From: Larkinella terrae
Lineage (GTDB): Bacteria > Bacteroidota > Bacteroidia > Cytophagales > Spirosomataceae
Direction: 5' to 3'
Assembly: GCF_009668025.1 (NCBI RefSeq)
Contig: NZ_WJXZ01000004.1
Location: 310,001-374,000, forward strand
Length of the DNA: 64,000 bases
Numbering within the stretch: position 1 is the stretch's first letter; every line of letters starts with the position of its first letter. Under the pieces are notes generated by a model, which was given only the letters and a program-made list of their open reading frames with translations, searched no databases and was not told the DNA's origin. Of the stretch, positions 5,860 to 45,146 are shown piece by piece. The translations under genes were made by a program, and so were the position numbers.

Positions 5860-5976
5860 TTGGTTTTCGGTATACGGTTTTCCGTTTACGGTGGCTGACG
5901 CAGCCATACAAATATCGAATACTGAATAGCGAATGCGTCAGGCACCGTATACCGTAAACTGAAAACCGGATACCAA
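5860..5976. repeat. Heptamer-word inverted repeat, copy 1
   Basis: Two 43-nt arms (5860-5902 and 5934-5976) are inverted copies matching at 34 of 43 positions. Each arm divides into five 7-nt words: GGTTTTC, GGTATAC, GGTTTTC, CGTTTAC, GGTGGCT on the left and the complements of GGTATCC, GGTTTTC, AGTTTAC, GGTATAC, GGTGCCT on the right. The loop holds a second word set (GAATACT, GAATAGC, GAATGCG) related to copy 2 at 9.1 kb. It lies between the divergent rpmG promoter and nuoD. Confidence 0.85.
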
Positions 5977-6017
5977 TTTTTGATTTTTGGACGTTCCCTG
6001 CCGACCTTTGACGAACG

Positions 6018-7253
6018 ATGACCACACAAACCATCCAATACGAGTACCAACCCGGCTTGTTTCAGGCTTCGGAGCCGAATAAATACACGCCCGACGACCT
6101 CGGCAACGGCGAAATGATTCTGAACATGGGGCCGCAGCACCCGTCGACGCACGGCGTTCTGCGCCTGGAAATCGTCACCGATGGCGAGATCATTGTCGAT
6201 GTGGTGCCGCATCTGGGCTACCTGCACCGCTGTTTCGAGAAACACGCCGAATCCATGCCGTATAACCAGACGCTGCCTTTTGTCGACCGGCTGGATTATG
6301 TGGCCGCGATGAACAACGAACACGTTTTCTGCATGGGCGTGGAGCGGATGCTGGGTATCGACAAAGAGCTGCTGACGCGGCCCGACGGTCGCCGGATCGA
6401 ATACATCCGGGTACTGGTGGCGGAGCTAAACCGGCTGGCATCGCATTTCGTGGCTATTGGAACGTATGCGCTGGACATTGGGGCTTACACCCCTTTTCTC
6501 TGGATGATGCGTGACCGCGAGCACCTGCAACGGCTGCTGGAATGGGTCAGCGGGGCGCGGATGCTCTATAATTACATCTGGATTGGCGGTTTGTATTACG
6601 ACTTGCCGGTCGGTTTTGAAGAACGCTGCCAGGAATTTCTGACGTATCTGAAACCAAAGCTGCTCGAAATGCAGCAGTTGGTGACCGAAAACAAGATTTT
6701 TGTGAAACGGACGGCCAATGTGGGCGTCTTGCCGCTGCCGGTTGCCATCAGTTACGGCTGTACGGGACCGGTTTTGCGCGGATCGGGCCTGCGGTACGAT
6801 TTGCGCCGGGTCGATGGCTATTCCGTTTATCCCGAACTGGATTTTGATATTCCGATTGGCGAGGGAAAAATGGGAACGCCGGGCGACTGCTGGGACCGGA
6901 ATTACGTGCGGGTGCTGGAATGCTGGGAATCAGTAAAAATCGCCGAACAGTGTCTGACACAATTGACGGGCGATCTGAAACGAACCCGCGACTTCGATCC
7001 GCAGGCGATGGCGCCCAAGAAAATCCGCCCGAAAGCGCAAGAGTTTTATGTGCGGGGTGAAATTCCGAAAGGCGAACTGGGTTTCTTTTTCCGGGCTGAT
7101 GGCCGGGCGGACATTCCGTTTCGCTGCCGGGCGCGGTCGTGTTCGTACCACAACCTCTCAGTGATCAGCGAAATTTCAAAAGGCGCGATGATCGCCGATC
7201 TGGTCGCTATCATCGGATCGATCGACGTGGTGATGGGTGAGGTGGATCGTTAA
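6018..7253 (+). CDS. nuoD: NADH-quinone oxidoreductase subunit D (orphan)
   Basis: 49-kDa subunit of respiratory complex I, forming part of the quinone-binding cavity with NuoB. 411 residues, full length. Visible family blocks are [16 protein letters not shown] near 37-52, [30 protein letters not shown] and the C-terminal [16 protein letters not shown]. The usual neighbours nuoA, B, C and E are absent: rpmG lies on one side and hpt on the other. A near-consensus -7 element (GACCTTTG, ending at 6011) lies so close to the ATG that the mRNA would be almost leaderless. The stop codon overlaps the convergent hpt stop. Confidence 0.95.
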
Positions 7254-7777
7254 TCCAGAATGAGAATTTCTTTTGCATTTCGCCCAAAACCGTCATAATC
7301 CAGCCCGTAGCCAACCACAAACTGGTTTTGAATTTCAAAGCCGACGTATTTGATGGCAACCTCAACTTTCAGCGCTTCCGGTTTGAACAACAGCGTCGCA
7401 ATTTCGAGCGAGGCCGGTTTTTGCTCCAGCAGATGCCGCGAAACATTCTGAATCGTCAAACCGGTGTCGATGATGTCTTCAATCAGAATCACGTCCTGAC
7501 CTTCCAGCGATTCGCTCAAACCCAATACCTGTTTCACCACGCCCGTCGAAGTGGTTTGCTGATACGAGCTGACGCGGATGAATGTCACCCGGCAGGGAAT
7601 GGTCAGCTGGGTCATCAGTTCAGCCGCAAAAATAAACGCGCCGTTCAGCACTACCACCAGCAGGGGTTCCTTGTCCCGGTAATCCTGATTGATTTGTTCG
7701 GCCAGTTGAACAATGCGGTTTTTTAAGGTGTTTTGATCAATGAAGGGAACAAAACGCTTGTCTTTGATAGTCAGCAT
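7250..7777 (-). CDS. hpt: Hypoxanthine phosphoribosyltransferase
   Basis: Purine salvage enzyme joining hypoxanthine or guanine to PRPP. 175 residues with the PRPP-binding motif [13 protein letters not shown] near 95-107, the flexible-loop region [14 protein letters not shown] and the base-binding [15 protein letters not shown] near the end. Length and motifs are normal. It is convergent with nuoD and the two stop codons share bases 7251-7252. A perfect -7 element (TACCTTTG, complement of 7801-7808) lies 23 bases upstream. Confidence 0.95.
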
Positions 7778-7800
7778 AGAGGGCCAGTTGACACGAAAGT

Positions 7801-7808
7801 CAAAGGTA
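7801..7808 (-). promoter_or_regulatory. -7 promoter element of hpt
   Basis: CAAAGGTA on the plus strand reads TACCTTTG toward hpt, a perfect TAnnTTTG. No clear TTG -33 element is visible at the usual distance. Confidence 0.55.
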
Positions 7809-7900
7809 AGGCATCCGGCGGGTTCGTAAAAACTTTTGGTATCGTAAACTGGAAATTCAAAAACTTCGTTGATAGAAAACGATAGCAGTATCCTTTAAAA

Positions 7901-9118
7901 ATGAAAAAAATCAGCCTTGTTTTAATCGGCCTCTTGCTGACCTTCGCTGCACGCGCACAGGTCTATTCGCTGGCGGATTTTGACAAAAAATACGATATGT
8001 TGTTGAAGCACCCCGGCGTCCAGATCGAGTCGGCGGAGGCTATCAACAACTTGTATAATTACAAATTCTACGAAGCCGACAAAGAGTTTCGCTGGCTGAA
8101 ACTGCGGTATCCCGACCACCCGATGCCGTACTTCCTGATGGCCCTGGCCGAGTGGTGGAAGATCGTTCCGAACACCGAAAATACCGACTTCGACGACAAG
8201 TGTATTGCTTACCTGGATACCACCATCACGAAAGCCGAAAAACTGTACGACGATAAAGAAAATAAAGTTGAACCGGCTTTTTTTCTGGCGGCTGCCTACG
8301 GTTTTAAAGGTCGGCTGTATTCCGAACGCAAGAAATGGGCGAAGGCAACCTGGGCCGGTAAAAATGCCCTGAAATTCTTCGATAAATGCAAGGGTAACGG
8401 TGATCTGACGCCCGAGCTGCTCTTTGGCGATGGGTTGTTCAATTATTACGCCCAGTGGATTCCCAAAAACTATCCGGCGCTGAAGCCGATTCTGATGTTT
8501 TTCCCGAAAGGCAATAAAGCGGAAGGAATTCGGCAACTGGAGCTAACGGCCAATAATGCCTTTTACACGCGCACCGAAGCCCGGTATTTTCTGCTGCAGA
8601 TCTACAGCATGGAAAACGAGTACGGAAAAGCGTATGATCTGGCAAAGTACATGTGGCAGCAATACCCCGACAATCCGTATTTCGAGCGGTATTATGCTCG
8701 AACGGCGTTTGTGCGCGGCTACTCCAACGAGGCATCGGCGGCTTCGCTCAGCATTTTAAGTAAAATTGAGCGCGGAATGGACGGTTACGAGGGCGTGGGC
8801 GGACGTACGGCGGCTTACATTCTGGCGTATCACCACCAGCACAACACCCACGATCTGACCAAGGCGAAGGAATATTACCAGAAAACCATTGATTTTGCCA
8901 AACAGACCAATTCCTACGATGCGGCTTATTACTGGGCGTCGGTGTTGAGTCTGGGAAAAATTGCGGCTTCGGAAAAGAATTACGACCAGGCCCAGGCCTA
9001 TTATAAAGAAGTCATCGACAAAGCCGACCGCAAATCCAGTCAGCACAAAGAAGCCAAAGACGGCTTGGATAATCTGAAAAAACTGCGGAGAGAGGACAGG
9101 AGAAAGGGAAGAAAGTGA
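7901..9118 (+). CDS. Exported TPR-repeat protein
   Basis: 405 residues with a signal peptide (MKKISLVLIGLLLTFAARAQ), so it is periplasmic or outer-membrane associated. The mature part is alpha-helical, with TPR-like repeats such as YNYKFYEADKEFRWLKLRYP near 50-70, TEARYFLLQIYSMENEYGKA near 225-245 and KTIDFAKQTNSYDAAYYWAS near 330-350. The C-terminus is highly basic (KKLRREDRRKGRK). TPR proteins act as protein-binding scaffolds; no partner can be deduced. It stands alone and is followed by the heptamer-word repeat at 9127-9215, beyond which lies a convergent Lrp gene. Confidence 0.8.
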   Translation: MKKISLVLIGLLLTFAARAQVYSLADFDKKYDMLLKHPGVQIESAEAINNLYNYKFYEADKEFRWLKLRYPDHPMPYFLMALAEWWKIVPNTENTDFDDKCIAYLDTTITKAEKLYDDKENKVEPAFFLAAAYGFKGRLYSERKKWAKATWAGKNALKFFDKCKGNGDLTPELLFGDGLFNYYAQWIPKNYPALKPILMFFPKGNKAEGIRQLELTANNAFYTRTEARYFLLQIYSMENEYGKAYDLAKYMWQQYPDNPYFERYYARTAFVRGYSNEASAASLSILSKIERGMDGYEGVGGRTAAYILAYHHQHNTHDLTKAKEYYQKTIDFAKQTNSYDAAYYWASVLSLGKIAASEKNYDQAQAYYKEVIDKADRKSSQHKEAKDGLDNLKKLRREDRRKGRK

Positions 9119-9126
9119 CAAATTAA

Positions 9127-9215
9127 AATATCGAACACTGAATATTGAATAACGAAGTTCAAAAGCACACGCAGCCACTTCGTTATTCGCTATTCAATAT
9201 TCAGTGTTCGATATT
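9127..9215. repeat. Heptamer-word inverted repeat, copy 2
   Basis: The left arm (9127-9157) is built of the words GAACACT, GAATATT and GAATAAC. The right arm (9178-9215) is its exact inverted copy except for one additional 7-nt word (GAATAGC in complement). The arms thus differ by exactly one word. It lies between two convergent genes and could form a long hairpin in both transcripts. Confidence 0.9.
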
Positions 9216-9225
9216 AATTTCCTTT

Positions 9226-9696
9226 TCAGGGAATCGGAAGGACTTTACTTTCTTTAAACGTCGACAGAATCACCATCGTTTGGGTACTGGCGACTTCTTC
9301 GATTTCGTTGATTTTTTCCAGCATCAGTACCTGATACGAGGCAATATCTTTGGCGATGACTTTCAGCAGAAAGTCGCCGGAACCGGTGATATGGTGGCAT
9401 TCGATGATCTCCGGAATGTTCTTCACGGCATTGACAAAGGATTCGGTTACCATCTTCTTGTGACCGACCAGCGAAACCTGCACAAACGTGGTTACGCCCA
9501 GACCGACCCGATCCCGATTCAACTGAGCGTGGTAGCTCTGAATAATGCCCGAAGTTTCTAATTTTTTGACACGCTCAAGCGTTGGTGCGGGGGATAAACC
9601 GATTTCCTTCGACAACTGAGCATTGGTGATTTTGGCGTTGGTCTGTAGAATTTCTAATACTTTCCGATCAATCTGATCGAGCTTGATTCCTGACAT
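9226..9696 (-). CDS. Lrp/AsnC family transcriptional regulator
   Basis: 156 residues with the standard two-part build: an N-terminal winged HTH (LDQIDRKVLEILQTNAKITN, then AQLSKEIGLSPAPTLERVKK, residues about 5-55) and a C-terminal RAM/ligand-binding domain (FVNAVKNIPEIIECHHITGS, then GDFLLKVIAKD). Lrp proteins form octamers and respond to amino acids. The target here cannot be read from context because both neighbours are unrelated. The A/T-rich upstream region (9.70-9.84 kb) could hold autoregulatory sites. Confidence 0.93.
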   Translation of the reverse strand: MSGIKLDQIDRKVLEILQTNAKITNAQLSKEIGLSPAPTLERVKKLETSGIIQSYHAQLNRDRVGLGVTTFVQVSLVGHKKMVTESFVNAVKNIPEIIECHHITGSGDFLLKVIAKDIASYQVLMLEKINEIEEVASTQTMVILSTFKESKVLPIP

Positions 9697-10050
9697 GATA
9701 GTGATTAACTTAAAACTTTATCCAACCATTATGAGATCATACAAAACTAAACACAATCCTTTTATTTTTATAAAAAAATATGGATTATTTACTAAAACGT
9801 AAAATAATGATTGGTTTTGTGTCCCAAATTTCCGCTCAAAATTACTGGATACAATAGTTATACCAAATACTGTTCAACATCCATTTCCACCGTTCCTAAT
9901 TTTTTTCCAAATATTATTCTGTGCGGAAACGGGCGGTTTTCTCTTCTGACGCCTTTGGAAAAAGCAGCTTTCTTTCTAAAATGCAAAAAGCCAGCGTGGT
10001 GATAACTGGCCTGCTTCGGTAGTGATGCAATAAACCGGCCGGTAACCAAG
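9697..10050. other. Intergenic region between lrp and the GHL10 gene
   Basis: About 350 bases without a gene. The first 140 bases are very A/T-rich, with an AATCC/GGATT inverted pair around poly-T and poly-A runs (about 9755-9790), a plausible Lrp-type binding region. Nothing further is recognisable before the promoter at 10051. Confidence 0.5.
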
Positions 10051-10083
10051 TTTGAAAGTGGACGGAGTTCTTCCGTATCTTTG
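10051..10083 (+). promoter_or_regulatory. Promoter of the GHL10 gene
   Basis: TTTG at 10051-10054, a 21-bp spacer and TATCTTTG at 10076-10083 match the Bacteroidota consensus. The predicted start is only about 20 bases before the ATG at 10109. Confidence 0.75.
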
Positions 10084-10108
10084 AGGATTACTTTGACCAG
10101 CTTTGTGC

Positions 10109-11650
10109 ATGCGCTTTCATTACCGGGTTTTCTTCGTCTTTTGTTGGTATCTTTTTGGGAAACCGGGTGAAGTGACGGCGCAAAAACCGCCAAAACGCGA
10201 ATTTCGGGCCGTTTGGATTGCCACGGTCGATAACATCGACTGGCCGAGCGTCCGGGGAATGTCGTCCGACAGCCAGCGAGCGGAGTTTATCGAGCTGCTG
10301 GATCAGCACCAGCGGGCGGGTATCAACGCCGTGGTGGTCCAGATTCGGGCGGCTGCGGATGCGTTCTACGCCAAAAGCACGGAGCCGTGGTCGTTTTGGC
10401 TGACGGGGCAGCAGGGGCGTGCGCCGGTGCCTTTCTACGATCCGCTCGAATTCATGATTCGGGAAACCCACGACCGCGGCATGGAGTTTCATGCCTGGTT
10501 TAACCTCGACCGCGCCACGTTCAGCAAACTCTCCCGCGTAACCCCCGACCACATTAGCCTTCGAAAACCGGAGTGGATGCTGCAATACGGTGGCCGGAAA
10601 CTATTCAACCTGGGCCTGCCCGAAGTGCGAAATTACGTGACCGGCATCGTGACGAATATTGTCCGAAATTATGACGTTGACGGCATTCACTTCGACGACT
10701 ATTTTTATCCGTACGGCGAACCGGGGCAAGTGGTGCATGACGAAGCGACCTACAAAGCGTATTTCAACGGGATGAACCTGGCGAACTGGCGCCGGGAAAA
10801 TATTAACATCCTGATTTTGCAGCTCCGGGATTCGATTCGCGCCATCAAACCGTTTGTGAAGTTTGGCGTCAGTCCGTTTGGCGTCTGGAAAAACCGCGCT
10901 CAGGACCCCGAAGGTTCGCAGACCACGGGCGGTTTAACGTCGTATTTTGATTTGTATGCTGACACGCGCAAGTGGGTTCGCGAAGGCTGGGTCGACTACA
11001 TCGCTCCGCAGGTGTATTTCAGCACGGATTTTCAGAAAGTGCCGTACCGGTTGCTGGTCGACTGGTGGATTAAAAACGGCTATAACCGGCATCTATACAT
11101 TGGTCAGGGCGCCTTTCGGATAAACCGCTCCACGCCCCGCGACCGCGCCTGGAACGATCCGAACGAAATGACGACCCAACTGAATTACAATCGCCAGTTT
11201 CCGCAGATTCACGGCAGTATTTATTTTAGCTCGAAGTCATTGACCGACAACCTGAACGGCGTCCGGGATACGCTGCTGACGAACTTTTACCGGTTCCCGG
11301 CGCTCATTCCGACCATGCCCTGGAAAGATCCCGAACCGCCCCTTTCGCCGAAAGAATTAAAGGCGAATCCGACGGCTGAAGGCGTTGAATTGTATTGGCA
11401 GCAACCCGGTCCGGCGCCCGACGGCGACAAAGCCAGCTATTACGTTGTGTACCGGTTTGACCGAAAAGATAAAATTGATACCGAAGACCCCACCCATATT
11501 GTGGCGATTTGCGTCGGTGAACAAACTACGCGCTTTATCGACCGAACCGCAGCGCACGATAACCGGTATATCTACGTCGTTACCGCGTTGGATCGTCTGC
11601 ATAACGAAAGCGCCCCGATTCAGGTGAACGTCCGCGTCCCGGAACCGTAG
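10109..11650 (+). CDS. GHL10-type glycosyl hydrolase-like protein (YddW/DUF187)
   Basis: About 513 residues from the ATG at 10109; a TTG two codons upstream is also possible. A signal peptide (MRFHYRVFFVFCWYLFGKPG) leads into the COG1649/GHL10 TIM barrel: FRAVWIATVDNIDWPS near 35-50, GINAVVVQIRAAADAFY, then VDGIHFDDYFYPYGEPG near 190 and GWVDYIAPQVYFSTDF near 298. A fibronectin type III-like domain forms the last 100 residues or so. Related proteins act on the cell wall or on polysaccharides; the substrate here is unknown. The stop codon TAG abuts a perfect palindrome at 11650. Confidence 0.88.
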   Translation: MRFHYRVFFVFCWYLFGKPGEVTAQKPPKREFRAVWIATVDNIDWPSVRGMSSDSQRAEFIELLDQHQRAGINAVVVQIRAAADAFYAKSTEPWSFWLTGQQGRAPVPFYDPLEFMIRETHDRGMEFHAWFNLDRATFSKLSRVTPDHISLRKPEWMLQYGGRKLFNLGLPEVRNYVTGIVTNIVRNYDVDGIHFDDYFYPYGEPGQVVHDEATYKAYFNGMNLANWRRENINILILQLRDSIRAIKPFVKFGVSPFGVWKNRAQDPEGSQTTGGLTSYFDLYADTRKWVREGWVDYIAPQVYFSTDFQKVPYRLLVDWWIKNGYNRHLYIGQGAFRINRSTPRDRAWNDPNEMTTQLNYNRQFPQIHGSIYFSSKSLTDNLNGVRDTLLTNFYRFPALIPTMPWKDPEPPLSPKELKANPTAEGVELYWQQPGPAPDGDKASYYVVYRFDRKDKIDTEDPTHIVAICVGEQTTRFIDRTAAHDNRYIYVVTALDRLHNESAPIQVNVRVPEP

Positions 11651-11767
11651 AGACGCGATTAATCGCGTCTCAGTCTCAGATGGAATAGCCTGAGGTAGTA
11701 ATAGTAGAAAATGGTGGTGGAAATGGAGACGCGATAATGATGGATGAGACGCGATTAATCGCGTCTC
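11650..11767. repeat. Duplicated perfect 22-bp palindrome (GAGACGCGATT half-site)
   Basis: Two identical perfect palindromes, each made of GAGACGCGATT and its inverse, lie at 11650-11671 and 11746-11767. A third, half copy (GAGACGCGAT) lies at 11726-11735. The first overlaps the last base of the GHL10 stop codon. The convergent isomerase gene ends at 11782, so the elements could serve as a two-way terminator, although no strong T-run follows either. Confidence 0.9.
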
Positions 11768-11781
11768 TACGTGCAAAAATT

Positions 11782-12624
11782 TTAAACGGTTTTCAGGAAC
11801 GCCAACCCTTTTACGGCAATGTCTTCGCCGGAGGCTTCGATGTCGCGCCAGATGGCGGCTGCTTTGGCGATCGCTTTTACTTCGGGCGTGAACGACTCAA
11901 TTACGAGCTGGCCTTTGAAATCAATATCTTTCAGCGCCTGGCGGATCGAATCCCAGTCGATGTGGTCGTTGCCGGGAATACCGCGGTCGCAGCCGCAGCT
12001 GTGGAGCAGTTCCAGCCGCGATCCGGCTTTGCGAATGGCGTCGGCCTGGAATTTTTCTTCGATGTTCATGTGGAACGTGTCGAGGTGCAGCCGCACGGCG
12101 TCGTTGTCCACCAGATTGGCGAGTTCAATGGCTTGATCGGCCGTATTGATAAAGTCGGTTTCGAAGCGGTTCAACGGTTCGAGTGCGATTTTAAGGCCTT
12201 TGCTCTGGGCATAAGCGGCCAGTTCTTTCAAATTTTTAACAACGGCTTTTTGCTGCTCGGCGTACACATCTCGGGGTGTAGCTTCGGCGCGGCCCACGCT
12301 CGAGTACAGCGGTCCCACCAGCATTTCGGCGCCAATGATTTCCATGACATCCAGCAACCCTTTCAAATACGTCATGGCGTTTTGCTGCTGTTCGTCGTCC
12401 CCGCGAAAATCCCGCTCGGGACCCATCGCTGCACAAACCGTCTTACAGCCGAGGTTGGCGTCGAGGAGGGCTTGTTTGACCAGTTGCGGATCGACGTTGG
12501 CGGGATCTTCCAGGCCGATTTCAACGGTGTCGAAACCCCATTCAGCAAATTTTGTAAACCACTTCAAGCTCTCATTCGTGAAGGGTGACGTAAACAAAAA
12601 CGTGTTGATACCAATGGTGTACAT
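11782..12624 (-). CDS. Sugar phosphate isomerase/epimerase (DTE-like TIM barrel)
   Basis: 280 residues of the xylose-isomerase-like TIM barrel family, closest in pattern to D-tagatose/D-psicose 3-epimerases. Probable metal ligands are visible: Glu in IALEPLNRFETDF near 145-157, Asp in VRLHLDTFHMNIEE near 179, His in LELLHSCGCDRGIPGNDHID near 206 and Glu in LVIESFTPEV near 241. The second His/Arg cluster GCDRGIPG is typical of ketose 3-epimerases. The substrate cannot be fixed from sequence and there is no sugar operon around it. A hairpin lies in its leader at 12649-12687. Confidence 0.85.
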   Translation of the reverse strand: MYTIGINTFLFTSPFTNESLKWFTKFAEWGFDTVEIGLEDPANVDPQLVKQALLDANLGCKTVCAAMGPERDFRGDDEQQQNAMTYLKGLLDVMEIIGAEMLVGPLYSSVGRAEATPRDVYAEQQKAVVKNLKELAAYAQSKGLKIALEPLNRFETDFINTADQAIELANLVDNDAVRLHLDTFHMNIEEKFQADAIRKAGSRLELLHSCGCDRGIPGNDHIDWDSIRQALKDIDFKGQLVIESFTPEVKAIAKAAAIWRDIEASGEDIAVKGLAFLKTV

Positions 12625-12648
12625 GCGATTGATTTGTTAGGTTCCGGC

Positions 12649-12687
12649 TTTACCGCAGTTTTCGAGTTTCGGAAACTGCGCGGTAAA
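12649..12687. promoter_or_regulatory. Hairpin in the leader of the isomerase gene
   Basis: TTTACCG plus CAGTTT (12649-12661) pair with AAACTG plus CGGTAAA (12673-12687), broken only by a 2-nt bulge, with an 11-nt loop. It ends 24 bases before the isomerase ATG on the minus strand. It could be an operator or an mRNA leader structure. Confidence 0.5.
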
Positions 12688-12860
12688 CCGCTCGTGGCCG
12701 TTGTTTTTCTCAGAAAGCAAAGGAATATCGACCCGGTTTTTACTGTATTCAGGGAATAGGTTAGCCTTTAGAATTCATCATTTATTAACTCAAGTATCTA
12801 ACAATGAGTCGATAATTCTAACGCATAAACTTAAAACGGATCAACTAATTCTGCCGGATT

Positions 12861-36072: not shown

Positions 36073-36079
36073 ATAAGGA

Positions 36080-36967: not shown

Positions 36968-36973
36968 CAAACT

Positions 36974-37564: not shown

Positions 37565-37581
37565 TTCAATTTCCGTAAAGT

Positions 37582-38358
37582 ATGTCTGCTACTGCAACGA
37601 CCGAAGCACCAGTGTTCGACAAGAAAACCTGGATGGGTGGCGTAGAACCGATGAAAGTGAGCTATGGTAAGCTCATGATGTGGTTTTTCCTCATTTCCGA
37701 TACCTTCACTTTTTCTGCATTGCTGGTAACCTACGGGTTAATCCGGTTCAGTTTCCAGGCATATGATCCGGCCATTCACGGCGAGTTTCATTTCTCGAAT
37801 CTGTACTGGCCGATTCCGGAACGCGTGTACGAAGCCGTACCGTTCCTCCACGGTATTCAGTTGCCGCTGGTGTTTGTCGGTATCATGACCTTCATCCTCA
37901 TTTTCTCATCGGTTACGATGGTATTGGCGGTAGAAGCGGGTCACCGGATGGACAAAGCCGCCGTTGAGAAATACATGTTGTGGACGATTCTGGGCGGTTT
38001 GACGTTCCTGGGAAGCCAGGCCTGGGAATGGACGCACTTTATCCACGGAACCGACGAAGGTTCAGTAATCCGGGAAATCGTTAACGGGCAATGGGTAGAG
38101 CGGACGATTTTTGGCGCTAACCTGACGGAAAACCAATATGGGCCTCCGGCCTTTGCGGATTTGTTCTTTTTCATCACCGGTTTCCACGGAACCCACGTTC
38201 TTAGCGGGGTGGTCCTGAACATCCTGATTTTCTACCGCACCTCTTTTGGTTTGTACCAGCGTCGGGGCCATTACGAAATGGTGGAAAAAGTCGGTTTGTA
38301 CTGGCACTTTGTCGACCTGGTTTGGGTGTTCGTCTTTACGTTCTTTTATCTGGTTTAA
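37582..38358 (+). CDS. coxC: Cytochrome c oxidase subunit III, second copy
   Basis: 258 residues, also subunit III family. Its features are FFLISDTFTFSALLVTYGLI near 37, AWEWTHFIHGTDEG near 138, the typical GFHGTHVLSGVVLNILIFY near 190 and a final YWHFVDLVWVFVFTFFYLV. The insertion between the second and third helix is longer than in the first copy. It is taken as the main subunit III because it keeps all family blocks. Confidence 0.92.
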   Translation: MSATATTEAPVFDKKTWMGGVEPMKVSYGKLMMWFFLISDTFTFSALLVTYGLIRFSFQAYDPAIHGEFHFSNLYWPIPERVYEAVPFLHGIQLPLVFVGIMTFILIFSSVTMVLAVEAGHRMDKAAVEKYMLWTILGGLTFLGSQAWEWTHFIHGTDEGSVIREIVNGQWVERTIFGANLTENQYGPPAFADLFFFITGFHGTHVLSGVVLNILIFYRTSFGLYQRRGHYEMVEKVGLYWHFVDLVWVFVFTFFYLV

Positions 38359-38378
38359 TATTTTTCAGCGATACCATC

Positions 38379-38708
38379 ATGGCAGATCATAGCTCACATC
38401 ACCACGATACTGAACCCGGCGTTATTGCCGAACCGCAAACCAAAGCCATCTGGCGGACGTTCGTTATCCTGTCCGTTTTGACGGCATTCGAATTCCTGAT
38501 TGCTTTCACACTGCACCACGGTTTTCTGAAAACGTCGATTTTCGTTTTGATGACCATCGTGAAGGCCTTCTACATTGTTGGTGAATTCATGCACTTGAAA
38601 CACGAGGTAAAATCACTGATCTGGGCCATTGTTCTGCCTTGTATCTTTGTCCTCTGGTTGTTGCTTGCCTTGCTGATGGAGGGAGGCTTCATCTTCATTG
38701 CAAGGTAA
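38379..38708 (+). CDS. Cytochrome c oxidase subunit IV (COX4/CtaF-like)
   Basis: 109 residues from the ATG at 38379. A His-rich start (MADHSSHHHDTEPG) precedes three helices (FVILSVLTAFEFLIAFTL, then IFVLMTIVKAFYIVGEFMHL, then LIWAIVLPCIFVLWLLLALL). The middle helix motif KAFYIVGEFMHLKHE is characteristic of the bacterial COX4 family. A small oxidase subunit without cofactors. Confidence 0.9.
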   Translation: MADHSSHHHDTEPGVIAEPQTKAIWRTFVILSVLTAFEFLIAFTLHHGFLKTSIFVLMTIVKAFYIVGEFMHLKHEVKSLIWAIVLPCIFVLWLLLALLMEGGFIFIAR

Positions 38709-38709
38709 T

Positions 38710-39396
38710 ATGGCGCGCTTTTTAAAAGCCGGAATCCTCCTGCTCCTGTTGGTGGTTCCGGCTTTTGTTTTTATTTTTCTTAAGGTATTCGGCCAGAATC
38801 AATTCAACCTTCAGACGTTTTTTCCGGTTATCGACGCCAAAACCGGGAAGATTGAAACCCGGCCCGCGCGTAACCCCGTTTTAGGAAACGATACCCAGGA
38901 TACGGTTTTCTACACGCTGCCGATAATTACAGGAACACTGCCGGATAAAAAACCGTACTCTACGGCGGCTCTGCGAGGCAAGATTTACGTCGCATCATTT
39001 ATCGGGCTGGAGTGTGATACGACCTGCGCAAAGGTCGCCGGGCAACTCAATCGTGTTCAGGATATTTTTTCCCAGAAACCGGAAGTCATGCTGGTGTCGT
39101 ATGTGGATAAAGATTCGGTAGCGGCCCAAGTTCGTAAATCATACGACGTACAGCCCGATAAATGGCTTATTGCCAAACCCGATACGCTGGAAACTACGTT
39201 TATTGCCGAACAATATTACCGCGTTAAGCAGCGCCCGATGACCGGACGCAAGAACGAAACTTTTACGCTGTACGAGGGGTTAGTACTGATAGATCATGAA
39301 GGGCACATCCGGGGCTTTTACAATGGGACCGACAAAACTGATGTCGATCGGCTGGTGTTGGAAATCAGAGTTTTAATGGATATTTATGCTAAATAA
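38710..39396 (+). CDS. SCO1/SenC copper chaperone
   Basis: 228 residues from the ATG at 38710, one base after the subunit IV stop. An N-terminal membrane anchor (AGILLLLLVVPAFVFIFLKV) is followed by a thioredoxin-like domain facing the periplasm with the copper site ECDTTCAKV (CxxxC, near 106-110) and a distal His in LIDHEGHIRGFYNG. SCO proteins deliver copper to the CuA centre of subunit II, which fits its place in the operon. Confidence 0.92.
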   Translation: MARFLKAGILLLLLVVPAFVFIFLKVFGQNQFNLQTFFPVIDAKTGKIETRPARNPVLGNDTQDTVFYTLPIITGTLPDKKPYSTAALRGKIYVASFIGLECDTTCAKVAGQLNRVQDIFSQKPEVMLVSYVDKDSVAAQVRKSYDVQPDKWLIAKPDTLETTFIAEQYYRVKQRPMTGRKNETFTLYEGLVLIDHEGHIRGFYNGTDKTDVDRLVLEIRVLMDIYAK

Positions 39397-39410
39397 GGCG
39401 TTCACTGCGA

Positions 39411-39953
39411 ATGGTAGGATTACAGATTGAACAAAGCAAGAAATACAGTCGGCTGATTAATATTCTGGCGATTGTGATTCCGGTGGTGGTCGCGGTTTTG
39501 CTGGGCATTCGCCAGAAAGTAGATCTGGGTAACTGGACAACGTACCTGCCGCACATCAATGCTGTTATCAATTCGGCTACAGCGGTTTTGCTGATGGTAG
39601 GTTTGTACTTTATCAAACAGAAAAATATTCCGGCGCACCGGGCAACCATGCTGACGGCTTTCACGCTCGGTTTTGTTTTTCTGCTGAGTTACGTCCTCTA
39701 TCACCTGTCGAACGAATCGACACCATTTGGTGGACAGGGCCTGATCAGACCGGTTTATTACTTTTTGCTCGTTAGTCATATCAGTTTGTCAATTGTGGTA
39801 GTTTGGTTTGTGTTACGGGCGGTTTATTTTGCACTGAGCGGTCAGATCGCCAAACACAAAGCGGTGGTAAAATGGGCGTATCCAATCTGGTTGTATGTCA
39901 GCATTACCGGCGTTATCGTTTATTTTCTGATTGCTCCTTATTATCGTCACTAA
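39411..39953 (+). CDS. DUF420 family membrane protein (CtaM-like)
   Basis: 180 residues with about five helices (INILAIVIPVVVAVLLGIRQ, then TAVLLMVGLYFI, then TAFTLGFVFLLSYVLYHLSN, then FLLVSHISLSIVVVWFVLRA, then a final helix). Conserved His residues are seen in LPHINAVIN, IPAHRATM, YHLSNE, SHISLS and near the end. This matches DUF420, the family of the oxidase assembly factor CtaM. A role in aa3 assembly is inferred from family and context. Confidence 0.85.
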   Translation: MVGLQIEQSKKYSRLINILAIVIPVVVAVLLGIRQKVDLGNWTTYLPHINAVINSATAVLLMVGLYFIKQKNIPAHRATMLTAFTLGFVFLLSYVLYHLSNESTPFGGQGLIRPVYYFLLVSHISLSIVVVWFVLRAVYFALSGQIAKHKAVVKWAYPIWLYVSITGVIVYFLIAPYYRH

Positions 39954-39966
39954 TTCCGTGTTGATC

Positions 39967-40251
39967 ATGAAAACCTGGAAAATCATTTTAGCCCTTGGAG
40001 TCCTATCCATCCTGACGATGACGGATACATTTGCGCAATGCGCCATGTGTCGCGGAACGGTGGAAAGTACCATGAGTAACGGGCGCAATCACGTGGCGGT
40101 GGGGTTGAATACCGGTATTCTCTATTTGTTGGCGACCCCATACCTGCTGGTAGCGATTGTAATCTTTCTTTGGATAAGAACCAGCAAAAAAGAACATGGC
40201 AAACGTCTCGCAATTGCAAGCCGTGTCCGGGGGGCTCTGTCCCAGATGTAG
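39967..40251 (+). CDS. Small exported CxxC membrane protein of the cox cluster
   Basis: 94 residues. A signal peptide (MKTWKIILALGVLSILTMTD, ending near residue 24) would place a CAMC pair (residues 25-28) at the very start of the mature periplasmic part. A membrane helix follows (ILYLLATPYLLVAIVIFLWI, about 49-68) with a short basic cytoplasmic tail. No named family is recognised. Position after sco and DUF420 and before DUF983, with a 56-base overlap into the next gene, suggests a part in copper or thiol handling during oxidase assembly (inference). Confidence 0.75.
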   Translation: MKTWKIILALGVLSILTMTDTFAQCAMCRGTVESTMSNGRNHVAVGLNTGILYLLATPYLLVAIVIFLWIRTSKKEHGKRLAIASRVRGALSQM

Positions 40252-40585
40252 GCAGGGAAAAATTTTCAAATACCCGATTTATAACCTTCGGCGGTTTGAT
40301 GACATGTACGAACATTGCCCGCACTGTGGTCTTCGCTACGAAATCGAACCCGGTTATTTTTGGGGAGCCATGTTTGTCAGTTACGCGCTGTCGGCGGGGG
40401 TTGCTCTGGTACTCGGTTTTCTGGTTTTCTACGGTTTAAATGATCCGGGCGGCTGGACGTATGTGTTGATTATCTGTCCGGCGCTGGTGTTGATTACACC
40501 CATCAATTTCCGGATTTCCCGAATTGTCTGGCTTCACTACGTATCCGGAATCCGGTACGACCCCGGCAAAACTTCAGAATTTTAA
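40196..40585 (+). CDS. DUF983 zinc-ribbon membrane protein
   Basis: 129 residues. Two zinc-binding CxxC pairs (GLCPRCRQGK near 14-18 and HCPHCGLRYE near 41-45) are followed by two helices (GAMFVSYALSAGVALVLGFL and YVLIICPALVLITPINFRIS). This is the DUF983 pattern; members often accompany cytochrome oxidase genes and have no assigned function. It overlaps the previous gene by 56 bases and ends directly before a strong terminator. Confidence 0.9.
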   Translation: MANVSQLQAVSGGLCPRCRQGKIFKYPIYNLRRFDDMYEHCPHCGLRYEIEPGYFWGAMFVSYALSAGVALVLGFLVFYGLNDPGGWTYVLIICPALVLITPINFRISRIVWLHYVSGIRYDPGKTSEF

Positions 40586-40593
40586 GGCATTTT

Positions 40594-40627
40594 AAGCCCG
40601 GTCCAATGGACCGGGCTTCTTTTTTTA
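40594..40627 (+). terminator. Terminator of the act-cox operon
   Basis: AAGCCCGGTCC (40594-40604) pairs perfectly with the inverse arm ending at 40618 around an AATG loop, followed by TTCTTTTTTT. Confidence 0.93.
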
Positions 40628-40700
40628 AATAATTTCAGCCGGGCGTGCAACCTCAGCCGATCCGGTTTGCATCTTGCTACTGAAAACGATCTTAACCTGC

Positions 40701-41288
40701 ATGATTCGACGATTACTCGGATATTCAACGGAAGCGCAGATGATAACTGCACTGCAACGGGCGGACAGCCGGGCGCAGAAGGCGTTATTTGATCGGTATT
40801 CGTCGAAAATGCTGACAATCTGCGTTCGTTATGTCTCCAACCGCTACGAGGCTGAGGAGATTCTGATGGACGGGTTTATGCGGGTTTTTGAAAAAATCGG
40901 GCAGTATAAAAGTGAAGGGAGTTTTGAAGGCTGGATTCGGCGGATCATGGTCAATGAATCCCTGATGTATCTGCGTCGGATCAAACAATGGAAGGCCGAA
41001 GTCGCGTTGGAAGATACCTTGCCGGAAGCCGACACCACCTTTGCCGATCAGGATCTGATGGCCGAAGACCTGTTGAATCTGCTCGAACAATTGCCGGCCG
41101 GTTACAAAACGGTTTTTAATCTCTATGCCATTGAAGGGTATAGTCACGCCGAAATAGCCGAATCATTAGGAATAACCGAAAGTACATCCAAATCGCAACT
41201 GCACCGGGCGCGGGCGCTCCTGCAACGGCTGGTTGCGCAGGCAGATGTAAAAAAAAAATCAATAAGTTATGAGCCAGCATCCTATTGA
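40701..41288 (+). CDS. ECF-type RNA polymerase sigma factor
   Basis: About 195 residues from the ATG at 40701; a TTG nine codons upstream is the alternative. Sigma region 2 is seen in RAQKALFDRYSSKMLTICVR and EAEEILMDGFMRVFEKIGQY. Region 4 is seen in LEQLPAGYKTVFNLYAIEGY and SHAEIAESLGITESTSKSQL. The extension is too short for SigA/SigH types. It is followed, with a 20-base overlap, by a gene for a single-helix protein likely to be its anti-sigma factor. Confidence 0.93.
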   Translation: MIRRLLGYSTEAQMITALQRADSRAQKALFDRYSSKMLTICVRYVSNRYEAEEILMDGFMRVFEKIGQYKSEGSFEGWIRRIMVNESLMYLRRIKQWKAEVALEDTLPEADTTFADQDLMAEDLLNLLEQLPAGYKTVFNLYAIEGYSHAEIAESLGITESTSKSQLHRARALLQRLVAQADVKKKSISYEPASY

Positions 41289-42111
41289 CGATCTGTTCGC
41301 CAGACAGTTAAGAGATCACGGAGTAAAACCGGAACGGGCTACCTGGGAAGAGTTGCAGCGACGAATGAACGCGAAAGAAGAGCGTAAATCATCCTTTATC
41401 TGGTGGTATGCGTCAGCGGCCAGTGTGGGCCTGCTTCTTTTGGCTTCGTGGTGGCTGTGGTCGGGTGATGAAACCGGCAAAGCCGATTTGGTGAACAACC
41501 GGATTGCCCATCAGGCAACGAAGAAAACCGCTCCGGCTAAAACGAAAGCTGCGGAATCGCAAACGAACGCGTTGCGGGCAGTTGAAAAGATAGATGAACC
41601 GGTGATCGCTTATGAAAAAACCGCTGAAGCCGGAAAAGAAAACCGGATCGCAGCGGTTCGCCGGACGGACCAAACCGCTCCACAGCCGGTTCAGGGACCA
41701 ATCGTGAGTGAAAAACCGGTTGTTCCGGCTACACCGGACGAGCCACGGAAACCGGAAACGCTCATTGCCGAAGTTACTTCGAAAGAGCCGGAACGAACGC
41801 TGGTGGTGCAGATTGCCGCGCCGGAAATCAAACCGACGACGCTGGTAGCCGCTACTGAACCAACGCAATCCGAAAGTGCAGAAGATACCGACGATCAACC
41901 CCGTAAAAAGCGGTTTCGGCTGGGCCGGGTGTTGCGCCAGATCAACAAACTGAAAGCCGGTGAGCCTGTCGAGTGGAATGAAGTGGGGGTTCAGCCGGGA
42001 ACCTTACTGGCCCGTGCTTCCGAAAAAGTGCACGAAGGCAAAGAGAAACTGACGGATTCGTACGAAAATCTGCGGTACAATGCATTCAAGAAAAATTCAA
42101 ACAACAAATAG
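41269..42111 (+). CDS. Putative anti-sigma factor (single transmembrane helix)
   Basis: 280 residues, not matched to a named family. An N-terminal cytoplasmic part (DDLFARQLRDHGVKPERATW) resembles the start of many Bacteroidota anti-sigma proteins. One helix follows (FIWWYASAASVGLLLLASWW, about 43-62), then a long Pro/Glu/Lys-rich low-complexity periplasmic stretch and a basic C-terminal segment (RKKRFRLGRVLRQINKLKAG). Overlap with the ECF sigma gene and topology support an anti-sigma role; no zinc motif (HxxxCxxC) is present. Confidence 0.7.
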   Translation: MSQHPIDDLFARQLRDHGVKPERATWEELQRRMNAKEERKSSFIWWYASAASVGLLLLASWWLWSGDETGKADLVNNRIAHQATKKTAPAKTKAAESQTNALRAVEKIDEPVIAYEKTAEAGKENRIAAVRRTDQTAPQPVQGPIVSEKPVVPATPDEPRKPETLIAEVTSKEPERTLVVQIAAPEIKPTTLVAATEPTQSESAEDTDDQPRKKRFRLGRVLRQINKLKAGEPVEWNEVGVQPGTLLARASEKVHEGKEKLTDSYENLRYNAFKKNSNNK

Positions 42112-42118
42112 AACAACC

Positions 42119-43141
42119 ATGAAGTACGTATTCACCACTCTCCTGATGCTGTTCGGTAGCCTGGCATGGGCCGCTGCCGAAAGTGCGCAAGCCGATTCAT
42201 TAGTCATTTTGTTCGGGAATAAGACCCGCCTGGTGATTCATTCCAACGACAAAGCCGGAATTCGGCAGTTGTCCAATTACGACATCAATAAGATTATCCG
42301 CGACATGGGTATGAAGCTGGATTCGGCCAGAGCGGGCGAAACATTCGTTGTCATTGATGAAAACCGGGTACAGCGGTATTTGCGGGATACGGTTCTGATC
42401 GTCACACAGCGCGACGGCGAAGTGCAGGTAACCATCAAGGAATCCGAAGGCCGCCGGTACGATAACTCTGACGATAACCACGATTCAGACTGGTCGGGCC
42501 GGAGCAAAAACCGCCGTCGGAAAAATGATAATTGGGACATTGGGGTTGACGGGGCTGGAATTGGGCTGAACACGCTGGTGGAACGAAGTGCCAATCCGAA
42601 TTATCCCAAAGAAAGTTATCAGTTGCGGCCATTGGGATCACGCTACCTCAGTCTGGCTCTGAGCCAGATGCCGACCATTGCCCGGAGCCAGCATGTTGCG
42701 TTCAAGATTTTTTACGGGCTGGAGGTTTCGTGGAATAATTACATGTTTGAGAATGACGTCATTGCTCAGAAAGGCCCCAACGGCATTGTTTTCGCGGACG
42801 CCGGGCGGGATTTGAGAAAGAGCAAGCTGACGGTTTGTTCGGTGAATCTGCCGCTGGTGCCGCGGCTCAGCTTCTACAACAACAGTGGTCGCAAAATGGG
42901 CCATCTGGGTTTCGGCGGCTACGTCGGCTACCGGGTCGATAGCTACACAAAAATCAAGGAGCAGGACAGCAACAAGGAGCGGCAGCACTCGGATTTTCAC
43001 CTGAATGATTTCCGCTACGGCCTTATTGCGCACATCGGCGTGGCCCGAACCAACTTTTTTATCAAGTACGATCTCAATTCAATGTTCAAAACCGACAAAG
43101 GGCCGGACGTTCGGGCACTAAGTTTCGGAATCGGTTTATAA
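42119..43141 (+). CDS. Exported protein, probable outer-membrane beta-barrel, of the ECF operon
   Basis: 340 residues from the ATG at 42119. It has a signal peptide (MKYVFTTLLMLFGSLAWAAA), a central charged region (DDNHDSDWSGRSKNRRRKND near 118-137) and a C-terminal half of alternating strands ending in a hydrophobic residue run (VRALSFGIGL), compatible with a small beta-barrel. It starts 7 bases after the putative anti-sigma gene, so the three genes form one operon. The protein may be the envelope target or sensor of this sigma system. Family not recognised. Confidence 0.6.
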   Translation: MKYVFTTLLMLFGSLAWAAAESAQADSLVILFGNKTRLVIHSNDKAGIRQLSNYDINKIIRDMGMKLDSARAGETFVVIDENRVQRYLRDTVLIVTQRDGEVQVTIKESEGRRYDNSDDNHDSDWSGRSKNRRRKNDNWDIGVDGAGIGLNTLVERSANPNYPKESYQLRPLGSRYLSLALSQMPTIARSQHVAFKIFYGLEVSWNNYMFENDVIAQKGPNGIVFADAGRDLRKSKLTVCSVNLPLVPRLSFYNNSGRKMGHLGFGGYVGYRVDSYTKIKEQDSNKERQHSDFHLNDFRYGLIAHIGVARTNFFIKYDLNSMFKTDKGPDVRALSFGIGL

Positions 43142-43157
43142 AAACTCATCACTCCTG

Positions 43158-43195
43158 AAAACCGCCCCTGGTGCAAGCAGGTGGCGGTTTTTATT
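43158..43195 (+). terminator. Terminator after the ECF operon
   Basis: AAACCGCC plus CCTG (43158-43170) pair with CAGG plus GGCGGTTT (43178-43190), followed by TTATTT. Confidence 0.85.
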
Positions 43196-43237
43196 TGCGG
43201 CTACAGATGTCGATCTAAATTTATTTTAAGTGAATAG

Positions 43238-43267
43238 TTGACTTAGCAAAAAAAGCATGTAATTTTG
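43238..43267 (+). promoter_or_regulatory. Promoter of the tRNA-Tyr/Gly/Thr-tuf unit
   Basis: TTG at 43238-43240, a 19-bp spacer and TAATTTTG at 43260-43267; about 60 bases before tRNA-Tyr. Confidence 0.85.
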
Positions 43268-43327
43268 CAACTCCATTGGCAGACGTGCTGATCGAGAGAC
43301 AGTAAAAAGTGCATTTTAAGGCTGAAA

Positions 43328-43413
43328 GGGGAGTTTCCAGAGTGGCCAAATGGATCAGACTGTAAATCTGCTGGCGTACGCCTTCGGAGGTTCGAATCCT
43401 CCACTCCCCACCA
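43328..43413 (+). tRNA. tRNA-Tyr (GTA)
   Basis: Acceptor GGGGAGT/ACTCCCC, anticodon loop CTGTAAA (GTA), a long variable arm as in class II tRNAs, T-arm GGAGGTTCGAATCCTCC and an encoded CCA. Confidence 0.97.
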
Positions 43414-43420
43414 GTAAATA

Positions 43421-43490
43421 GTTGTTAGTTTTTAGTATATAGTTTGTCGTTTTGACTTTAACAATAAACCGTAAACATAAAACTGATAAA
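43421..43490. repeat. Heptamer-word inverted repeat, copy 3
   Basis: Seventy bases fall into ten 7-nt words without remainder. The left arm is GTTGTTA, GTTTTTA, GTATATA, GTTTGTC, GTTTTGA. The right arm is the complement of TTTATCA, GTTTTAT, GTTTACG, GTTTATT, GTTAAAG. It fills the spacer between tRNA-Tyr and tRNA-Gly. Confidence 0.85.
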
Positions 43491-43492
43491 AA

Positions 43493-43568
43493 GCGGGAGT
43501 AGCTCATTTGGTAGAGCGGTAGCCTTCCAAGCTTCAGGTGGCGGGTTCGAGCCCCGTCTCCCGCTCCA
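43493..43568 (+). tRNA. tRNA-Gly (TCC)
   Basis: Acceptor GCGGGAG/CTCCCGC, anticodon loop CTTCCAA (TCC), T-arm GCGGGTTCGAGCCCCGT and encoded CCA. The anticodon stem GTAGC/GCTTC has one T-T mismatch. Confidence 0.96.
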
Positions 43569-43569
43569 G

Positions 43570-43632
43570 ATAATGAATAGTGTATGATGGATATGACGAG
43601 TCAATCATTTTCATTTTACATTATTCATTTTT
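43570..43632. repeat. Heptamer-word inverted repeat, copy 4
   Basis: Words ATAATGA, ATAGTGT, ATGATGG, ATATGAC, GAGTCAA are followed by TCATTTT, CATTTTA, CATTATT, CATTTTT. The right half is an approximate inverse of the left. It fills most of the spacer between tRNA-Gly and tRNA-Thr. Confidence 0.8.
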
Positions 43633-43652
43633 CGTAGTAGTCAGTAAAAAAA

Positions 43653-43724
<72 letters not shown>

Positions 43725-43784
43725 CTGAAACGGCTAAATTTTAAACAATAATAATTAACCAGTTCAATTTAAGCTTTTCCAACA

Positions 43785-44972
43785 ATGGCTAAAGAAAATT
43801 TTGACCGTTCCAAGCCGCACGTCAATATTGGTACGATTGGTCACGTTGACCACGGTAAGACGACCCTGACCGCTGCCATCACGAAAGTTTTGTCAGAAAA
43901 AGGTTTGGCCGAAAAACGCGACTTTTCGTCAATTGACAACGCACCGGAAGAAAGAGAGCGTGGTATTACGATCAATACTTCGCACGTAGAATATTCGACA
44001 GCAAACCGTCACTATGCACACGTTGACTGTCCGGGCCACGCTGACTATGTGAAAAACATGGTTACGGGTGCCGCTCAGATGGACGGCGCTATCCTTGTGG
44101 TAGCTGCTACGGACGGCCCAATGCCCCAGACTCGCGAGCACATCCTGCTGGCCCGTCAGGTAGGTGTACCTCAGCTGGTTGTTTTCATGAACAAAGTGGA
44201 CATGGTCGACGATCCGGAACTTCTGGAACTCGTTGAAATGGAAATCCGCGAACTGCTGAGCTTCTACGAATACGATGGCGACAACATTCCGGTTATCCAG
44301 GGTTCTGCGCTGGGTGGTCTGAATGGCGACGCGAAATGGGTTGCAACGATTGAAGACCTGATGTCTAACGTTGACAGCTACATCCCGCTGCCTCCACGTC
44401 AGACGGAACTTCCGTTCCTGATGCCGGTTGAAGACGTGTTCTCAATCACGGGTCGTGGTACGGTTGCTACGGGTCGGATCGAGCGCGGAATCATCAACTC
44501 TGGCGAGCAGGTTGAAATTCTGGGTATGGGTGCCGAAAACATGAAATCAGTTGTTACGGGTGTTGAAATGTTCCGGAAAATTCTGGACCGTGGTGAAGCC
44601 GGTGATAACGTAGGTTTGCTGTTGCGCGGTATTGAAAAAACCGATATCCGTCGGGGTATGGTTATTTGCAAACCCGGTTCAGTAAAACCGCACGCTAAAT
44701 TCAAAGCTGAGGTATACGTTCTGTCGAAGGAAGAAGGTGGCCGTCACACGCCGTTCTTCAACAAATACCGTCCGCAGTTCTACTTCCGTACCACGGACGT
44801 AACGGGTGAAATTTCACTGCCCGCTAACGTTGAGATGGTTATGCCCGGTGATAACATCACGATCGAAGTGCAACTGATCAACAAAATCGCCATGGAGAAA
44901 GGTCTTCGTTTCGCTATTCGCGAAGGTGGCCGGACGGTTGGTGCAGGTCAGGTAACTGAAATCCTCGACTAA
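43785..44972 (+). CDS. tuf: Elongation factor Tu
   Basis: 395-residue GTPase that brings aminoacyl-tRNA to the ribosome. G1 is GHVDHGKTT (18-26 region), followed by the G2-region [30 protein letters not shown] and SALGG. Domains 2 and 3 are complete ([12 protein letters not shown]; final [16 protein letters not shown]). It follows three tRNA genes and precedes tRNA-Trp, the tRNA-tuf grouping found in many bacteria. In this genome the tuf copy is separate from rpsL-rpsG. Confidence 0.98.
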
Positions 44973-44989
44973 TTTACGAACAAACAGGC

Positions 44990-45025
44990 AAGTGCATTTC
45001 TTTCGGGGGATGCACTTGTTTTTTG
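44990..45025 (+). terminator. Terminator after tuf
   Basis: AAGTGCAT (44990-44997) pairs with ATGCACTT (45010-45017), followed by GTTTTTTG. The right arm contains the TTG -33 element of the next promoter. Confidence 0.88.
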
Positions 45026-45044
45026 TGAATATTTAGTAACTTTG
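45016..45044 (+). promoter_or_regulatory. Promoter of tRNA-Trp-secE-nusG-rplKAJL-rpoB
   Basis: TTG at 45016-45018, an 18-bp spacer and TAACTTTG at 45037-45044. The -33 element is shared with the tuf terminator stem and T-run. Confidence 0.8.
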
Positions 45045-45065
45045 CAGTCCGTTTCGGCGGAAAAC

Positions 45066-45142
45066 AGGAATAAGGAGAAAAGAGATAAGATAAAAGACTG
45101 ATTCTCAACTTTTGTCTTGCTTCTTTTCTCCTTCTTCTCACT
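45066..45142. repeat. Heptamer-word inverted repeat, copy 5
   Basis: Seventy-seven bases read as eleven 7-nt words: AGGAATA, AGGAGAA, AAGAGAT, AAGATAA, AAGACTG, ATTCTCA, ACTTTTG, TCTTGCT, TCTTTTC, TCCTTCT, TCTCACT. The second half is an imperfect inverse of the first (21 of 25 in the best arm). It would lie in the 5' leader of the tRNA-Trp transcript. Confidence 0.82.
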
Positions 45143-45146
45143 AAAT

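Follow-up and report, generated by a model that had tools for sequence, protein, structure and literature searches.

The 64,000-nucleotide stretch of Larkinella terrae DNA analysed here (contig NZ_WJXZ01000004.1, positions 310,001 to 374,000, hereafter the window) contains five intergenic palindromes that are examples of a more general feature: Larkinella has many short intergenic hairpins, often made of varying 7-nt words. The comparison of orthologous sites suggests that one half of such a hairpin is repeatedly recopied from the other; the letters change fast and the hairpin survives. From a mechanistic perspective, the reading favoured here, with a probability of about 60%, is that these are palindromes similar to the repetitive extragenic palindromic (REP) elements, reshaped by template switching of the DNA polymerase between the arms of the inverted repeat.

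The five elements had been described in an earlier note on the window as combining a 7-nt period with dyad symmetry; all of them are present where that note placed them, and both properties exceed chance. Lag 7 is the top self-match among lags 2-15 in every element (identity 0.50-0.60), a score reached in 0 of 5000 composition shuffles for four elements and in 10 of 5000 for that at 43570-43632. The predicted fold energies range from -16.7 to -48.0 kcal/mol (z from -3.1 to -10.3, 200 shuffles). Searching the window's 31 spacers for inverted repeats of score at least 12 yielded 8, where 100 shuffles averaged 0.03 and never exceeded 1. Element 1 (5857-5979; finder score 21, arm lag-7 identity 0.54) is a palindrome of RGTWTWC words with arms at 5857-5902 and 5934-5979 and a loop at 5903-5933, flanked by a small frame leftwards and a nuoD-like frame rightwards. 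Element 2 (9127-9215; left arm 9127-9158, right arm 9177-9215) is a GAATANY palindrome that fills a convergent spacer. One of its arms had been said to hold one additional word, and this agrees with the predicted fold, a 32-bp stem with exactly 7 unpaired bases that puts the extra word at 9184-9190 (forward strand) in the right arm. The other three are located in a cluster of tRNA and EF-Tu genes: element 3 (43422-43489), an imperfect GTTTWTA palindrome, between tRNA-Tyr and tRNA-Gly; element 4 (43572-43629) between tRNA-Gly and tRNA-Thr; element 5 (45068-45137) between a promoter-like stretch and tRNA-Trp. No strand is assigned to these palindromes. The sequences of elements 4 and 5 are conserved in 8 of 9 species. 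The description of 43421-43490 as exactly ten words depends on the choice of ends, and the stem there is imperfect.

The window sits in a 7.85-Mb genome of 22 contigs, and the nearest relatives of its nuoD-like protein are found in Larkinella species (L. rosea first, 96%). In a blind scan of 464 kb, or about 6% of the genome, made up of the window and 20 arbitrarily chosen 20-kb stretches, the peak was at lag 7 in 26 of 64 inverted repeats and at lag 10, the next commonest, in 9, an excess in line with what the earlier note had expected of such a scan; the extrapolation to the whole genome gives about 440 lag-7 palindromes. When 60-kb stretches of eight sister species were added (944 kb in total), a stricter heptad rule held for 48 of 125 inverted repeats. 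In arms of at least 18 nt that repeat strongly within themselves, the best lag was 7 (43), 8 (6), 9 (6), 10 (7), 11 (3) or 13 (2), and 7 is therefore the preferred, not the sole, word length. The search for inverted repeats allowed no gaps and breaks up bulged stems, and the gene calls are crude (longest open frames); element 1, in a divergent spacer, was misread by them as tandem. Eighty related loci (822 kb) gave 64 inverted repeats of score at least 15 and none after base shuffling in 300-nt bins. Of 80 named loci from Cytophagales, those of six of seven Larkinella (the exception being L. soli), of Spirosoma and of Rudanella show lag-7 palindromes most clearly; Runella, Fibrivirga, Sporocytophaga and two others have single or doubtful cases. 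Another 18 stretches, from other genera of the family (about 342 kb; two further stretches were all N), contained 3. The abundance of heptad palindromes thus looks clade-specific.

The evidence for arm copying comes from orthologous sites in nine Larkinella genomes. Changes in the stems were counted in 41 site rows with one species pair each (895 stem columns; the row pairs 16153/17594 and 52296/52028 are one site each), and 50 were one-sided and 58 two-sided against 7.7 expected by independence, an excess that is overstated because the stem finder requires pairing in both species and so inflates the two-sided class, a point to be held against the copying reading. For the heptads alone the two-sided changes were 21, with 3.5 expected. 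Of the 58, 47 go from pair to pair, 25 being of transition and 22 of transversion type. Such changes could be two-step compensatory mutations under ordinary selection on an RNA hairpin acting as a terminator or 3'-end stabiliser, a possibility favoured by the location of the palindromes near gene ends and in convergent spacers and by the ordinary T-run hairpins that L. soli has at the sites of elements 2, 4 and 5. This explanation is nevertheless considered unlikely, given that the 22 transversion-type changes have no route through G-U and that neither loop inversion nor simultaneous word changes in both arms are predicted by it.

Loop inversion with collinear flanks was found at 5 of 28 informative rows in the comparison of three close sister species (G002, G003 and G006; two rows are one element), and this count is free of the pairing bias of the stem finder. 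Local matches of 24 over a 24-nt loop and of 17 over a 17-nt loop are examples, and a sixth inversion, with 18 of 18 letters, occurs in the GAATANY set (three informative ortholog groups); loops otherwise vary freely in length between orthologs. Every one of the five inversions of the main count involves the L. humicola draft, as might be expected if errors of sequencing or assembly at palindromes in drafts had produced them. At site 74326, however, the L. terrae genome, like L. humicola, is inverted relative to Larkinella sp. C7 and L. punicea, and at site 16153 it is L. knui whose loop runs opposite to that of C7 and L. humicola, so that one faulty assembly is no explanation; moreover, at site 48659 the L. 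terrae genome agrees with L. punicea, and whole elements are about 90 nt, below the usual read length. An artefact is accordingly regarded as highly improbable.

Crossing over between the arms would also invert loops, and homologous recombination or gene conversion, either between arms or with family copies elsewhere in the genome, would fit with families that are dispersed and with sites that switch family. Arms of 24-40 nt are probably short for RecA. Site 48659, furthermore, has retained the letters of its loop in inverted form although both sides of two stem pairs are altered, and this change was therefore local. Recombination is considered quite unlikely as the source of these patterns.

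The arms that were aligned also change by whole words, as the earlier note had anticipated for the spacers: 7 nt in one arm (element 2, where Larkinella sp. C7 has, by alignment, a 7-nt word at the corresponding left-arm place too), 14 nt in one arm (site 1445), 7+7 in both arms (site 73372) and 9+9 in both arms of a period-9 element (site 91571). At site 27073 L. punicea (G006) has the left arm in a perfect fold-back copy. The active copying or correction process suggested in the earlier note is supported by the two-sided stem changes, the loop inversions and the whole words gained or lost, and both marks of a template-switching quasipalindrome, arm homogenisation and spacer inversion, are seen.

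In the template-switching model, a DNA polymerase meets a palindrome and the growing strand may fold back or switch strand; one arm would then be copied from the other, pairing would be restored, and a change, or a gained or lost word, would be carried into both arms. The same switch could also invert the loop, while slippage, which in bacteria is reported to favour 7 nt, would add or remove words. A less sure part of the proposal is that the transcribed hairpin would end or protect transcripts and that, as a consequence, selection would keep the hairpin and not its letters. Template switching between inverted-repeat arms has been reported for yeast, human and Escherichia coli. It is described as causing arm homogenisation and spacer inversion (PMC8604942) and as able to create and maintain RNA hairpins (PMC8794818), and the preference of bacterial tandem repeats for 7 nt is ascribed to slippage (PMC4679880, PMC4692102), so that period and dyad together would be accounted for. 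A bolder version, in which each genome of the lineage has several hundred self-repairing hairpin sites, free to drift in sequence since one arm is rewritten from the other all the time, the loops flip frequently enough for phase variation within populations and the 7-nt word is the copying unit, perhaps through a replication peculiarity or a dedicated enzyme of the lineage, must be seen as a long shot.

As for their distribution, the word themes are not unrelated elements and recur as dispersed families. The statement that the five elements have no common sequence was only partly correct: the core GGCTGACGCA (5893-5902, forward strand), located where the left arm of element 1 meets the loop, recurs in palindromes elsewhere, its inverse TGCGTCAGGC, with one mismatch, begins the right arm, and GAATANY words, the builders of element 2, form an unpaired run in the loop of element 1 (5911-5933, forward strand; missing in the G008 ortholog). 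Two themes have a loop core in common (GGCTGACGCA...TGCGTCAGCC). The theme of element 2, GAATANNGAATANNGAATA, has 56 exact matches in the L. terrae genome and none for the reversed pattern; it is present in 12 of 58 relatives, with 75, 51, 26, 12, 11 and 1 matches in six Larkinella and 0 in two. When the whole element-2 sequence was compared (40 candidates scored per genome, palindromes counted on both strands, hence lower bounds), there were at least 34-71 matches in four Larkinella genomes and at least 0-5 in the other five, the best match elsewhere among the scored candidates being a different L. humicola site (87%). In the 56 overlapping GAATANN matches, 111 of 112 words have C or T as their second variable base, and two equal words seldom stand side by side (3 vs 9.3 expected, P 0.011). 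From one GAATANY word to the next, the last base tends to switch between C and T (TC 23, CT 18, CC 8, TT 6, CA 1; n=56).

The core GGCTGACGCATT carries either GTTTACGG-type or GAGTTAAG-type arms and occurs 26 times in L. terrae, 50 in L. humicola, 37 in L. knui and 0 in L. soli, the reversed control giving 2, 1 and 1 in the first three. Sampling by the core alone gave 19 palindromes, 18 with lag 7, in 20 L. humicola regions (the first 22 of 50 places) and 8 palindromes, 7 with lag 7, at the first 10 of 37 L. knui places, where one of the two misses is coding-like DNA and the other an imperfect heptad array. In locus L221 (G003:C6:25900-26560) an inverted GGCTGACGCATT pair flanks an CCCCTAAAGGGG palindrome, so that one palindrome is nested in the loop of another.

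The dispersed families and patchy species range, the REP-like placement and the Y1 genes, of which every one of the nine Larkinella genomes has 1-7, would all suit mobile REP-like elements, or elements like miniature inverted-repeat transposable elements (MITEs), moved by a Y1 transposase of the type called REP-associated tyrosine transposase (RAYT), the heptads being merely part of the element. The ten of 28 Y1 loci that were checked, including the three of the L. terrae genome, show other inverted repeats and none that obeys the heptad rule, two of these repeats being weak lag-7 ones (0.42, 0.44); the best identity between different sites within one genome is 0.86 in the sampled elements. 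Target-site duplications were not evident by eye in eight sites, where the flanks are often altered. Mobilisation by Y1/RAYT is thus not supported by the ten loci and is held to be improbable. Larkinella Y1 genes (L233-L242) are flanked by other short palindromes, such as GTCGCGTAGCGAC and CCCACGGTTTAAACCGTGGG, probably their own REPs.

Palindromes are also exchanged at fixed sites: a long palindrome is present in at least two species in 37 site rows, and in 16 of these some pair of species has clearly different ones. The element-2 spacer has a palindrome in every one of the nine species, with words that differ, namely GAATANY in L. terrae and C7, GAGTTAWGA-like words in L. rosea, L. knui, L. 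humicola and L. arboricola, GATGAACGATG in L. punicea and G001, and an ordinary A-run/T-run hairpin in L. soli. In C7, L. humicola and L. punicea the coding bases are 93-95% alike and the element-2 spacers only 0.47-0.68. The element 4 and element 5 spacers, in eight species, are conserved at 0.82-0.99 and 0.77-0.99, respectively, and have T-run hairpins in L. soli. The site after a stop codon at 11651-11736, where L. terrae has a REP-like palindrome (GAGACGCGATT-AATCGCGTCTC, no strand assigned), is occupied across the species by REP-like, AAATGTA-heptad, CCCCTAAAGGGG and GAGACAA-heptad families. Since one and the same orthologous site has different word themes, and even different periods, across species, a protein that reads 7-nt-spaced sites, the other possibility raised in the earlier note, is rejected.

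With regard to a possible role, the crude gene calls over 564 kb of the L. terrae genome place 13 heptad palindromes in convergent, 13 in tandem and 1 in divergent spacers, the spacers themselves being 47 convergent, 155 tandem and 53 divergent; convergent positions account for 13 of the 27 palindromes and 47 of the 255 spacers (P 0.001 for the excess). Eight of 12 convergent heptad palindromes are at most 12 nt from both flanking open frames. A canonical terminator accompanies a T-less palindrome in 2 of 30 convergent spacers, against 36 of 63 for comparison (orthologs pooled, palindromes overlapping a canonical terminator excluded, which weakens the comparison), and in L. terrae only in 1 of 14 against 17 of 30 (P 0.0025). 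This rarity suits a terminator role, and termination is a plausible putative role of the hairpins. A U-tract has been argued not to be needed for termination in all bacteria (PMC8355165).

Several observations weigh against the proposal, either in its copying or in its transcript part. Element 5 shows no homogenisation, its arms being 0.86 alike within and 1.00 between C7 and L. humicola, and the L256/L261 pair has six one-sided changes and zero paired ones, again without homogenisation; the recurrence of L. humicola in the inversions counts on the same side, and the spread of families to new sites is not accounted for by template switching. A canonical intrinsic terminator has a GC-rich stem and then a T-run, and a T-run of at least 5 at the outer end is found in only 11 of 48 heptad palindromes; canonical terminators adjoin the palindrome at two sites. 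No significant terminator deficit was detected in tandem spacers (8 of 51 vs 93 of 385, P 0.22), nor any significant effect in divergent ones (5 of 9 vs 31 of 108, P 0.13). Element 1 lies in a divergent spacer; it is present in G000, G008, G002 and G003, left as remnants in G005 and G006 and missing in three species (G001, G004, G007). A sense-strand G-U bias, 32 vs 14 in pooled data, is gone in the L. terrae genome alone (9 vs 6) and was discarded.

Among known systems, the degenerate heptamer repeats of Xanthomonas (GGGAATC) and Nostoc (GGGGA(C/T)T) are similar in having degenerate 7-nt units, mostly intergenic and nearer to the 3' end of the upstream gene, with lengths and sequences that differ between relatives (PMC4692102). 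The same source reports 70 and 75 inverted heptamer pairs in two Xanthomonas genomes, and the inverted layout, which had been regarded as different from the cyanobacterial repeats, is therefore not wholly new. Those repeats have one G-rich theme with G-quadruplex potential (PMC4692102), whereas in Larkinella the themes are many and AT-rich, the arms pair almost perfectly, families replace each other at one site and loops are inverted; the GAATANY words are without GGG, the G-tract of quadruplexes. REP elements are likewise dispersed palindromes of several families per genome, between convergent or co-directional genes and close to stop codons, with a size of 20-40 bp, GTAG or CGTC tags and often a RAYT (PMC3733652). 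The Larkinella elements share with them the many dispersed intergenic palindromes, mainly at gene 3' ends; they differ in being longer and heptad-structured, with no such tag seen by eye in the 12-nt flanks of 20 copies of the GAATANY theme and no cognate RAYT gene flanked by the same palindrome at the ten of 28 Y1 loci checked.

The reports on quasipalindrome template switching describe the same arm homogenisation, spacer inversion and multi-base paired changes, there as scattered mutations in yeast genes or RNA genes (PMC8604942, PMC8794818), while in Larkinella the process, together with word slippage, would apparently drive an entire class of intergenic elements in bacteria. The TAACTGA direct repeats are intergenic 7-nt units found in some Bacteroidetes too and, unlike the Larkinella elements, are described as one word repeated head-to-tail with no dyad; the same source gives 7 nt as the most abundant repeat unit and links it to polymerase slippage (PMC4679880). 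In the Larkinella elements the words vary and the orientation reverses at the centre, so that the head-to-tail pattern of a single unit, typical of short tandemly repeated repetitive (STRR) sequences and simple sequence repeats (SSR), is not seen. Cyanobacterial STRR sequences are intergenic 7-nt units, head-to-tail repeats of one word without dyad. The minute inversions of chloroplast hairpin loops are, as here, inversions of the loop in intergenic stem-loops, in plastids, and to our knowledge have no tandem words in the arms.

No report of such elements in Larkinella or Spirosoma was found in searches of open-access literature; as far as these searches go, what is new is the large number of themes, the replacement of one palindrome by another at fixed sites and the footprint of arm copying with loop inversion. 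These findings bear on the old puzzle of how long hairpins stay near-perfectly paired while their sequence changes: by scaling, each genome of this one genus has several hundred sites that can serve as natural tests, and its sister species are related closely enough for arm copying, the gain of whole words and loop inversion to be caught. The replacement of unrelated palindrome families by each other at fixed sites also bears on the evolution of REP-like elements and terminators.

Some further observations concern the period and the neighbourhood of the elements. Six-frame stop codons were considered as a cause of period 7 (7 being 1 modulo 3) and dropped as weak; heptad palindromes close a mean of 5.08 frames vs 4.73 in shuffles (sd 0.19), and all six in 12 of 26. 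Palindrome families that lack a 7-nt period, CCCCTAAATCCCCTAAAGGGG, CCCTGTCAGCGG, GCGGAGTTAAGCGGAG (period 10) and ACGGATTGAACGGATT (period 9), were seen at the syntenic sites 65165, 54846, 15668 and 58074 and in L031-L050, and they likewise show paired changes and loop inversion. In G055, a genome of the same order and another family, the reversed control pattern ATAAGNNATAAGNNATAAG has 48 + 30 matches, so another lineage may have its own heptad theme, and in another genus of the family a perfect GAATAAT-type array of about 64 units (G036:C335:8454-8906) is direct, not inverted. The promoter-like stretch TTAGTAACTTTGCAGTCCG ahead of tRNA-Trp (window 45010-45146) is kept in all nine species, and in L. 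soli a T-run hairpin follows it directly in place of element 5, as if ending a short leader transcript.

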